Of a stretch of 64,000 nt of DNA, positions 9,071 to 43,270 are shown piece after piece. Below the pieces are notes generated by a model, which made no database searches, had not been told where the DNA came from, and saw only the letters and a list, made by a program, of their open reading frames with translations. Where the stretch lies: NCBI RefSeq assembly GCF_014280935.1, contig NZ_JACLZI010000036.1, forward strand, positions 62,001-126,000. Direction: 5' to 3'. Positions within the stretch are counted from its first letter, which is position 1. Each line of letters begins with the position of its first letter. The position numbers and the translations under genes were made by a program. Origin of the DNA: Aquibacillus kalidii. Lineage in GTDB: Bacteria > Bacillota > Bacilli > Bacillales > Amphibacillaceae.

Positions 9071-9095
9071 CTACTACATGTTAAATCACATGATA

Positions 9096-9185
9096 CAGCC
9101 ACTTCCCTACGCTAGTTTTAACTAGATCAGGTTCAAAGGGTTAGGTATAACCATCTCAGTCCGTATAGACACCCCTAGTGAGTTA
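9096..9185 (-). ncRNA. TPP riboswitch (THI box) upstream of tenI-thiOSGF
   Basis: On the minus strand the conserved THI-box elements occur in order: CTAGGGGTGTC, GACTGAGATGG, ACCCTTTGAACCTGATC and the closing GCGTAGGGAAGTGG. These form the two arms that bind the pyrimidine and the pyrophosphate of thiamine pyrophosphate. A terminator follows at 9042-9070, so ligand binding should stop transcription before tenI. It lies inside the larger cluster, only 26 bases after the ykoC stop. Confidence 0.95.
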
Positions 9186-9210
9186 GAAAAAATATGAAAT
9201 TATCGGAAAG

Positions 9211-12871: not shown

Positions 12872-12918
12872 CATAATCGGAATATTTCATATAAAAGCAC
12901 AGTAATACAAAATTCCGT

Positions 12919-13015
12919 CATTCCACTTCCCTACGCTGGTATGATCCAGATCAGGTTCTAAGGGTCTTAAAGTATCACTTTAATCTCAGTCTTAACAAAG
13001 ACACCCCTAGTGGGT
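12919..13015 (-). ncRNA. TPP riboswitch (THI box) upstream of tenA-ykoEDC
   Basis: Minus-strand THI-box elements CACTAGGGGTGTC, GACTGAGAT, GAACCTGATCTGGAT and CAGCGTAGGGAAGTGG are all present. The P3 arm is longer and more AT-rich than in the second copy. A strong terminator follows before tenA, consistent with transcription attenuation by thiamine pyrophosphate. Confidence 0.95.
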
Positions 13016-13141
13016 TGCTAATTTATTCAATTTTCGTACTTATCATATCATGATTCTAAATATTGTCAAACAGAATTTAACACTTTTGGCAGAGGTTCAT
13101 CATATACAAACGCTTATTAATAGTTAAAGCCCAATCCAGTG

Positions 13142-26068: not shown

Positions 26069-26201
26069 TAAATTAATAGAACATGTAATCTTCAGTAGAA
26101 ATTTTCAGGCAAATTCCTTTATTTCATTGCAAGGGCAATTAATGTTTGATATAGTGGTATCTAACAAAAGAATAATGCTTTACTTCAATAAATTAATTGA
26201 A

Positions 26202-26384
26202 GTGAGGATAGAGGTGCAAAGACCATAAGTAAGTAGTTTGAGGAGAATGAGCCCATTGAAGACTACTGAAAGGGGAATTTGCCGAAGCGGGCAGAAGCTC
26301 ATCATTCTGCTTCGCTGGTTCTGTATTGAATAAATACAGAGCTGTCATATAGCTACCTATACGCTATATGGAGGGCTATCTCAC
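26202..26384 (+). ncRNA. Lysine riboswitch (L box) upstream of dapA
   Basis: The leader carries the core L-box sequences GAGGATAGAGGTGC, a TAAGTA segment, GAAAGGGGAATTTGCCGAAGCG and CTGG, then a GAGCTGTCAT stretch. The closing P1 helix pairs GAGGATAG with CTATCTC. It is followed by an intrinsic terminator and then dapA, so lysine should cause premature termination. The aptamer begins about 135 bases after the ATP-grasp stop. Confidence 0.92.
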
Positions 26385-26410
26385 GCATCATAACGGAAAA
26401 TAATAGTGAT

Positions 26411-26443
26411 GCAACAACGATGCCCTTCGTTGTTGCTTTTTTT
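26411..26443 (+). terminator. Expression-platform terminator of the lysine riboswitch
   Basis: GCAACAACGA and TCGTTGTTGC form a perfect stem followed by TTTTTTT. Confidence 0.88.
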
Positions 26444-26480
26444 GTACTATTAAGATTTATGGTGTTGGAGGAAAAAACGA

Positions 26481-26528
26481 ATGCTTACGCAATACAAATA
26501 TGTTTTTCTTACCTTCATCCGTTCCTAG
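26481..26528 (+). CDS. Possible 15-codon leader peptide between riboswitch and dapA
   Basis: An ATG at 26481 follows TTGGAGGAAAAAACGA, a strong ribosome binding site, and encodes MLTQYKYVFLTFIRS before a TAG. The stop is 11 bases upstream of the 5' arm of the helix that masks the dapA ribosome binding site. It is a candidate leader peptide whose translation would open that helix. There is no run of lysine codons. Confidence 0.4.
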   Translation: MLTQYKYVFLTFIRS

Positions 26529-26539
26529 TGATGAGATAC

Positions 26540-26597
26540 CCTCTATTCATACTGTTATTGGTTGTTAGAACGTTTGTTTTTAATCTATGAATAGAGG
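26540..26597 (+). promoter_or_regulatory. 12-bp helix masking the dapA Shine-Dalgarno
   Basis: CCTCTATTCATA (26540-26551) is an exact reverse complement of TATGAATAGAGG (26586-26597). The 3' arm contains the AGAGG used by dapA, so the helix would hide the ribosome binding site. The loop is 34 bases. This looks like a second, translational control layer after the lysine riboswitch. Confidence 0.5.
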
Positions 26598-26605
26598 TGA
26601 TGAAA

Positions 26606-27493
26606 ATGGATTTTGGTCGTGTATTAACAGCGATGGTGACTCCATTTGACCAAAATGGAAATATTGATTATGGAAAGACAGAAAGATTAATTAATCACTT
26701 GCTCGCCAATGGCACAGATGCCTTAGTGGTAGCTGGTACTACTGGTGAGTCTCCAACTTTATCAAAAGAGGAAACACTAGCTTTACTAAAGTTTGTCGTA
26801 AAAACGGTGAAGAATCGTGTCCCAGTAATTGCAGGAACTGGCTCAAATAACACTCAAGCATCTATTGAGCTAACAAAGCAAGCTGAGACAATTGGTGTGG
26901 ATGGAGTAATGTTAGTTACACCATATTACAATAAACCTTCCCAAGAGGGAATGTACCAGCATTTTAAAGTAATTGCTGCAGCTACCACTCTCCCTGTTAT
27001 GCTTTATAATATTCCAGGAAGAAGTGTAGTTAATTTAGAACCAGAAACGGTAATCGAACTTTCAAAAATAGATAATATCGTCTCCATTAAAGAAGCAAGT
27101 GGCGATTTAGACGCTGTTACAAAAATTATTAACGAAACGGCAGATTCTTTCACCCTATATAGTGGTGATGATAGTTTAACTTTGCCAATTCTATCCGTAG
27201 GTGGACACGGAGTTATTTCTGTTTCCTCTCATATAATTGGTAATGATATGCAAGAGATGGTACGTAGCTTTATGTCAGGAGATCCTAGGAGATCAGCATC
27301 TATCCATCAAGCAATTCTTCCCATTATGAAAGCTCTATTTATGGCACCGAATCCAACAGCTGTTAAAGAGGCTTTAGGATTGGTTGGTTGGGATGTTGGT
27401 TCTGTGAGATTACCATTAGTCCCTTTAAATAAAGAGGAAAAGCAAGTTCTTGAGCATTCTATTCATTTTTTACGAAATTATAACGTTGGATAA
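26606..27493 (+). CDS. dapA: 4-Hydroxy-tetrahydrodipicolinate synthase DapA
   Basis: DapA condenses pyruvate with aspartate semialdehyde, the first committed step to lysine and dipicolinate. With the ATG at 26606 (eight bases after AGAGG) it has 295 residues. AGTTGES holds the two active-site threonines (45, 46), Tyr108 lies in TPYYNKPSQEG, Tyr134 in MLYNIPGR and the Schiff-base lysine is Lys162 in SIKEASGD. It is not in a dap operon here. The lysine riboswitch, possible leader peptide and SD-masking helix indicate feedback control by lysine. Confidence 0.95.
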   Translation: MDFGRVLTAMVTPFDQNGNIDYGKTERLINHLLANGTDALVVAGTTGESPTLSKEETLALLKFVVKTVKNRVPVIAGTGSNNTQASIELTKQAETIGVDGVMLVTPYYNKPSQEGMYQHFKVIAAATTLPVMLYNIPGRSVVNLEPETVIELSKIDNIVSIKEASGDLDAVTKIINETADSFTLYSGDDSLTLPILSVGGHGVISVSSHIIGNDMQEMVRSFMSGDPRRSASIHQAILPIMKALFMAPNPTAVKEALGLVGWDVGSVRLPLVPLNKEEKQVLEHSIHFLRNYNVG

Positions 27494-30680: not shown

Positions 30681-31063
30681 TTTCTTTAGATACTATCTTA
30701 TTTGAGATCTACCATAACTTTATTATGTACGAAAATAAAAATACCAGTCCCAATATGGAACTGGTATATTTCATTTAAAGTTAACAGCCACAATTGCCGT
30801 AAATCTTTTAAGAAAGTTTTAAACCACCACTCCTCAAAGTGGGTGTTCGCAGAAACCTTCCTGTCTTCCACACATGTTGGAGGCCTGACATTATTGTTTC
30901 AATGTAAAACTCCCTATTCCAGCTTAAAGGTTAAAACTTAATTAGTATTACGAACATCGTAGCTTGTATCATTATAATATCGTATTGTGTTCCATAATTC
31001 AATGTTTTTTTTTGGATAGTTATTCAATTTAACTATAACTTTAAACTGTAAACTTAGCGAATA
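30681..31063. other. Gene-free gap with a weak terminator and an unexplained conserved-looking block
   Basis: After the YaiI stop, ATACCAGT and ACTGGTAT (30739-30767) form a hairpin that may terminate transcription. A GC-richer stretch at about 30817-30925 contains a hairpin CCACT...AGTGG and no credible gene. Its composition stands out from the surrounding AT-rich DNA and could be the end of a lost mobile element, but no transposase or matching end is found. Confidence 0.3.
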
Positions 31064-43026: not shown

Positions 43027-43270
43027 CATCAAAAAAACTCTTTCTGTCCTGTAATTAAGAAAGGACGGAAAGAGTTTGGATCCGCGGTACCACCTTTAGT
43101 TGGCAAATATGCCCACTCGGTCCTGTAACGTAGGTAACGGTTAAGTTATTAGCTCAACAGTTCATAGGGTAGGTTCAATAGGAAGTTAAACGGTAGAATC
43201 TTTCAGCCAGTGAATTCTACTCTCTTTCGTTTCTGGTCCTATTTACTAGTCCTAATCTGCACAGTTTATT
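43027..43270 (-). ncRNA. Proline T-box leader of proBA
   Basis: On the minus strand the leader has the T-box sequence AAGGTGGTACCGCGG (about 43076-43095). A competing terminator follows (AAACTCTTTC...GAAAGAGTTTTTTT, 43030-43077). Stem I has an AGTA-type loop, and opposite it is the specifier CCT (43171-43173) flanked by GAA and A, which codes for proline. Uncharged tRNA-Pro should stabilise the antiterminator. Its promoter is mapped at 43288-43316. Confidence 0.93.

Follow-up and report, generated by a model that had tools for sequence, protein, structure and literature searches.

Organization of the dapA leader

The window, which is the whole stretch of DNA analyzed (64,000 nucleotides; 64 kb), carries dapA, encoding 4-hydroxy-tetrahydrodipicolinate synthase (26606..27493, + strand), as identified from its open reading frame (ORF) and orthologues. 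The start codon is the ATG at 26606-26608 (MDFGRV...), 8 nt past the GG of AGAGGTG, and a further in-frame ATG is present at 26600. In the closest genera, the dapA orthologues that follow lysine riboswitches are 79-83% identical. All of the leader features described below are on the + strand.

A consensus scan alone placed a putative promoter at 26127..26155 (TTGCAA-17-TATAGT; the second hexamer is preceded by TG). An L box aptamer (RF00168) follows at 26201..26386, with an Rfam match of 131.4 bits (E 5.6e-35) that covers the full length of the covariance model (model positions 1-182 of 182). RF00168 aptamers precede dapA in the window and at the orthologous loci, as expected for the leader of a lysine gene. 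By its covariance-model match and position in the leader, the aptamer is a lysine riboswitch. In the sequence, the 5' arm of P1 (GTGAGgATAG, 26202..26211) has its partner at 26376-26384, within the aptamer 3' strand ATGGAGGGCTATCTCACGC (26368..26387), which consists of J5/1 and the P1 3' arm and was delimited by RNAduplex and the antiterminator fold. A scan located an intrinsic terminator hairpin and its T tract at 26411..26443 (stem, 26411-26436). The aptamer 3' strand and the 5' side of the terminator form an antiterminator of -19.1 to -21.5 kcal/mol (z -3.54 for the fold of -19.1 kcal/mol). The terminator and an antiterminator built on the P1 3' strand are mutually exclusive, which is the arrangement of a transcription-attenuating L box.

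Several other regulatory RNAs in the window scored above the Rfam gathering scores: a T-box leader (43058-43268, - strand), two TPP riboswitches (12911-13018 and 9087-9186, both - strand), and a 6S RNA (30781-30968, - strand). A second dapA paralogue of the same genome (contig C34, 214060-214914, - strand) is 67% identical, and the search of this genome reported no lysine riboswitch near it. The only other lysine riboswitch of the genome (L112; contig C42, 1914-2090, - strand) precedes an antiporter-like gene (MENSFYSLLPAVLMLILVLVTRKV) labeled as NhaC-type by resemblance alone, and no sequestor of the dapA type is present behind it.

A conserved hairpin masks the dapA Shine-Dalgarno sequence

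Downstream of the intact L box and terminator, CCTCTATTCATA (26540..26551) is perfectly complementary to TATGAATAGAGG (26586..26597), which holds the core AGAGG of the dapA Shine-Dalgarno (SD) sequence. The exact 12-bp arms, their position, and the SD sequence in the 3' arm had been reported in the first-pass annotation, and all are present in the sequence. Folding and conservation also support both arms. The resulting hairpin, designated here as the sequestor, folds with -17.8 kcal/mol (z -2.64). In shuffled sequence, perfect 12-bp inverted repeats (loop, 3-60 nt) occurred at a mean of 0.75 per 64 kb, whereas the window contains nine distinct sites of this kind, the dapA hairpin among them. 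A chance origin of the dapA hairpin was excluded mainly because the helix is conserved in relatives, and not by its rarity alone.

Orthologous dapA loci were gathered from the family and order (Bacillales genomes). Among 108 extracted leaders, two were false and dropped, leaving 106 distinct leaders in which a lysine riboswitch immediately precedes dapA; the nearest named relatives are Aquibacillus rhizosphaerae and Aquibacillus salsiterrae. The hairpin class of the window was found in 44 of the 106 leaders. Under a broad pattern, these 44 leaders (the TATTC class) carry (GT)GATGAGATA(C/G)CCTCTATTCA or a recognizable variant after the terminator and TGAATAGAGGTG before the start codon, approximately 15 to more than 100 nt after the 5' element. 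The loop and the upstream spacer are divergent. In 37 aligned sequences, 90.3% of the cells of the SD helix were paired, versus 33-54% in slid registers. Both sides were altered in 14 cells (shuffle mean, 6.8), mainly by a change of the outer pair from UA to AU, and none of 500 shuffles reached the covariation score. The helix varies little, and one outer pair carries most of the covariation. A 5' arm constrained to pair with the SD sequence as well as with an invariant aptamer strand would be expected to have near-invariant inner pairs.

An SD-masking helix after the L box and terminator is real and conserved, with some covariation. A conserved hairpin that pairs with the SD sequence is characteristic of a translational, SD-sequestering riboswitch platform. 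The leader does not correspond to the dual platforms of Barrick and Breaker, whose regulated terminator contains the ribosome-binding site (RBS) in its 3' side, because the dapA SD sequence is in a separate hairpin (26586-26597) and the terminator stem ends at 26436.

Predicted pairing between the aptamer strand and the post-terminator element

The element GTGATGAGATACCCTCTAT (26528..26546), which overlaps the anti-SD arm, is complementary over 18 bp to the aptamer 3' strand at 26368-26387. This duplex, designated as the antisequestor, comprises ATGGAGGG/CCCTCTAT, TATCTCA/TGAGATA, and CGC/GTG, with C26376 and A26531 as one-base bulges. RNAduplex yielded -24.8 kcal/mol, versus -13.2 +/- 2.4 kcal/mol for dinucleotide shuffles, and in a scan of approximately 32,000 windows from both strands of the 64 kb, no site other than the aptamer strand and the complement of the element itself reached -24.8 kcal/mol. 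The aptamer 3' strand is thus common to P1, the antiterminator, and the antisequestor. The seven bases CCTCTAT (26540-26546) belong to both the antisequestor and the sequestor, in which their partner is ATAGAGG, the SD core; the two structures are mutually exclusive for this reason.

Complementarity between the aptamer and the element was significant (p<=0.05) in 79 of 105 dapA leaders, which share phylogenetic descent, and in none of 11 leaders of other lysine-riboswitch genes (nhaC-like, lysC, and lysA; a control set built from Rfam matches). When similar leaders were collapsed, 33 of 45 clusters passed. The SD-pairing arm surpassed shuffles in 47/101 dapA leaders versus 1/10 controls, and in 94 of 101 leaders the aptamer-pairing and SD-pairing sites had an overlap of 3 nt or more.

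The aptamer motif GGAGGG resembles an SD sequence and is a confounder of this test. As a control, the anti-SD arm was kept fixed and only its 5' flank was shuffled. This flank-only test was passed (p<=0.05) by 30 of the 44 leaders of the TATTC class, including that of the window (p 0.01), and by 2 of 50 leaders outside it, in which aptamer pairing is consequently inseparable from the SD-likeness of GGAGGG. We dropped the claim of an antisequestor for all Bacillales on this basis, and the firm claim is confined to the TATTC class. The flank GATGAGATAC, which does not participate in the SD helix, is 89% conserved in comparison with 49% for the loop, and against CTATCTCACGCATC alone the flank reached a mean of -10.2 kcal/mol versus -6.3 kcal/mol for shuffles. 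These comparisons of leader sequences make coupling between the aptamer and the element well supported for the class of the window. An anti-SD strand that may pair with the aptamer, exclusive with P1 and the sequestor, was thus found in silico in this class, and the signal is weak elsewhere. One relative (L113) lacks two bases of the aptamer strand, which shortens the pairing with the element.

Other leader types were also noted. Oceanobacillus, Salinibacillus, Alkalibacillus, and related leaders (L036, L041, L048, L065, L146, L151, L158, and L165) carry GGTCCTCCACACC or a similar motif after the terminator. In these leaders, GGUCCUCC can pair with aptamer GGAGGGCU over 8 bp, and CACACC pairs with the SD sequence GGGTGTG and barely overlaps the aptamer-pairing site. 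In the CCTCCACACC type, the overlap between the antisequestor and sequestor is minimal and the SD sequence is paired in both states. A compact type with GATAGCCCTTTT or a similar motif (L159, L160, L157, L170, and L138) has a 5' half complementary to aptamer AGGGCTATC and a 3' half that pairs with the SD sequence AAAAGGG; it may be the switch in its simplest form.

Folding of complete leaders

Full leaders were folded in a state with P1 enforced and in a P1-free state imposed by soft constraints. With P1 enforced, the pairing probability of the SD hairpin in the window was 0.87 (1.00 in several relatives) and that of the aptamer-element duplex was 0.00; the latter was 0.78 in the P1-free state. 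Among 97 leaders, the accessibility of the SD sequence in the P1-free state increased by more than 0.1 in 39 and decreased in 6. The predicted opening in the window is modest and partial (0.23 without P1 versus 0.12 with P1) because the freed SD sequence takes other partners in silico. Against shuffled upstream sequences, SD accessibility by partition function was at chance level (6/106 leaders with p<=0.05; controls, 2/11), and this statistic was superseded by the SD complementarity test.

Both pairings are conserved in the class of the window, exclude each other, and compete thermodynamically in silico. Nevertheless, a conserved hairpin that folds alone is also what would be expected if it were uncoupled from lysine, with the riboswitch acting through the terminator only and the hairpin lowering or buffering dapA translation, or sensing temperature or another factor. 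The insignificance of aptamer-element pairing in the other Bacillales types when the anti-SD arm was fixed agrees with this explanation. However, it does not account for the flank GATGAGATA, which lies outside the hairpin and yet is near-invariant and complementary to the P1 3' arm in the class of the window, or for the combined complementarity to the SD sequence and aptamer, which was not seen behind other lysine riboswitches. We regard an uncoupled hairpin as rather unlikely, although it is the most serious competitor of an aptamer-controlled one.

The short ORF in the leader and other explanations

The first-pass annotation had proposed a second control layer on dapA, in which ribosomes completing a short leader peptide cover the 5' arm and free the SD sequence. 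The SD-masking helix of this proposal stood, being conserved in related genera with some covariation; control through translation of the leader peptide did not. The 15-codon ORF MLTQYKYVFLTFIRS (26481..26528, stop included) is present as described, with GGAGG 9 nt before its ATG and a TAG stop that ends 11 bases before CCTCTATTCATA. However, it is located in the long spacer (26444..26527), most of which is, by length comparison with close relatives, an insertion: the T run and the element are 84 nt apart in the window, versus 17-21 nt in the closest relatives. The insertion was rejected as a repeat since its sequence occurs once in its own genome, with no second copy.

The annotation had suggested conservation in relatives as a check, and the answer was divided: the helix was kept with a few compensatory changes, and the ORF was found in no relative. 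Among the 106 dapA leaders, there was no homologous short ORF, and only in the window does an ATG ORF with a strong SD sequence lie ahead of such an element. In this survey, entries whose start falls only a few bases from the T tract are artefacts of the scoring, and L054 and L090 have unrelated ORFs in other parts of the leader. Leader-peptide attenuation depends on the translation of a short ORF that is conserved ahead of the switch helix, and the ORF of the window is not conserved. An overlapping second ATG frame of about 43 codons (MVLEEKTNAYAIQIC...FNL; ~26459-26590, +) crosses the 5' arm and terminates with TGA where the 3' arm begins; no counterpart was noticed by eye in relatives.

The SD sequence of the 15-codon ORF is strong (-9.3 kcal/mol) and the ORF ends 11 nt 5' of the anti-SD arm, so that a ribosome on it might open the helix, with dapA translation hinging on leader translation. 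However, all relatives lack the ORF and retain the helix and flank, the ORF is within an insertion specific to the window, the peptide contains one Lys and no recognizable stalling motif, and a ribosome at the stop codon would also mask part of the antisequestor site. The dependence of dapA translation on leader translation is accordingly unsupported, and we rejected leader-peptide control as very improbable. The complementarity of the masking strand to the aptamer, which the first-pass annotation had missed, offers a simpler, conserved means of opening the helix.

A role of the paired arms as an inverted-repeat operator bound on the DNA by a transcription factor is hardly conceivable: the 12-base arms are strongly conserved, but a loop of ~15 to more than 100 nt among relatives is hardly tolerable for a dimer site on DNA, the 3' arm is tied to the SD sequence in its position, and the arms of other genera differ in sequence while SD complementarity is kept.

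Discussion

The present analysis leads us to consider it probable that one lysine aptamer of the dapA leader serves two successive platforms, which compete with each other for a single aptamer strand. In the absence of lysine, the J5/1-P1 3' strand would build the antiterminator, allowing RNA polymerase to read through. The emerging GTGATGAGATACCCTCTAT would then capture the same strand and, as the antisequestor, pull CCTCTAT off the SD sequence, making the SD sequence of dapA accessible. In the presence of lysine, P1 would form and the terminator would act; in transcripts that escape termination, the released CCTCTATTCATA would shut over the SD sequence and block translation. We infer that lysine binding drives this exchange of pairings in cells. 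The benefit is likely to be the suppression of terminator leak together with an off response on mRNA that has already been made.

This two-tier logic has precedent in the TRAP-controlled trp leader (PMC12288461), and leak was lowered by engineered dual control (PMC5435934). The trpEDCFBA leader of B. subtilis is the closest functional parallel, in which a single sensor acts on a terminator and, in transcripts that read through, on a downstream hairpin that sequesters the trpE SD sequence. However, its sensor is the TRAP protein and not an aptamer, and the pathway and sequences are different. The dual riboswitch platforms described by Barrick and Breaker in 2007 likewise attenuate transcription and then translation if termination fails. 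They are defined by an RBS inside the terminator hairpin (PMC2258182), whereas the dapA leader has a separate hairpin 97 nt past the T tract with its own aptamer pairing. The lysC L box of B. subtilis shares the aptamer family and the exchange between P1, antiterminator, and terminator; transcription termination has been described for it (PMC8124236), and a downstream SD sequestor has not been described in the literature searched. In E. coli, the lysC lysine riboswitch is paired with RNase E decay and not with an intrinsic terminator (PMC5584792). The dual-control repressor derived from pT181 combines a terminator and RBS masking to cut leak (PMC5435934); in contrast to the dapA leader, its input is an antisense RNA, its RBS is inside the terminator, and it is engineered.

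Whether a terminator and an SD-sequestering hairpin placed in series on one natural lysine aptamer, with one switch strand, are old and widespread in Bacillales dapA leaders, the anti-SD strand being rewritten between genera while complementarity to the SD sequence and aptamer is kept, is in our judgement an evenly balanced proposition. The open-access literature searched held no report of a lysine riboswitch with a serial terminator and sequestor. Firmicute riboswitches are usually classed as transcriptional (PMC2258182), and surveys of expression platforms stop near the terminator. A survey of lysine riboswitches in 2017 did not mention terminators or SD sequences (PMC5584792), and a covariation study in 2026 restricted the sequence downstream of the lysine aptamer to 25-50 nt (PMC13273304). 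If the proposed mechanism is true, platforms that suppress leak in series may be frequent and have gone unnoticed, and in the dapA leader engineered dual-control RNA devices would have a counterpart in nature. It would also provide a testable reason for the length of dapA leaders.
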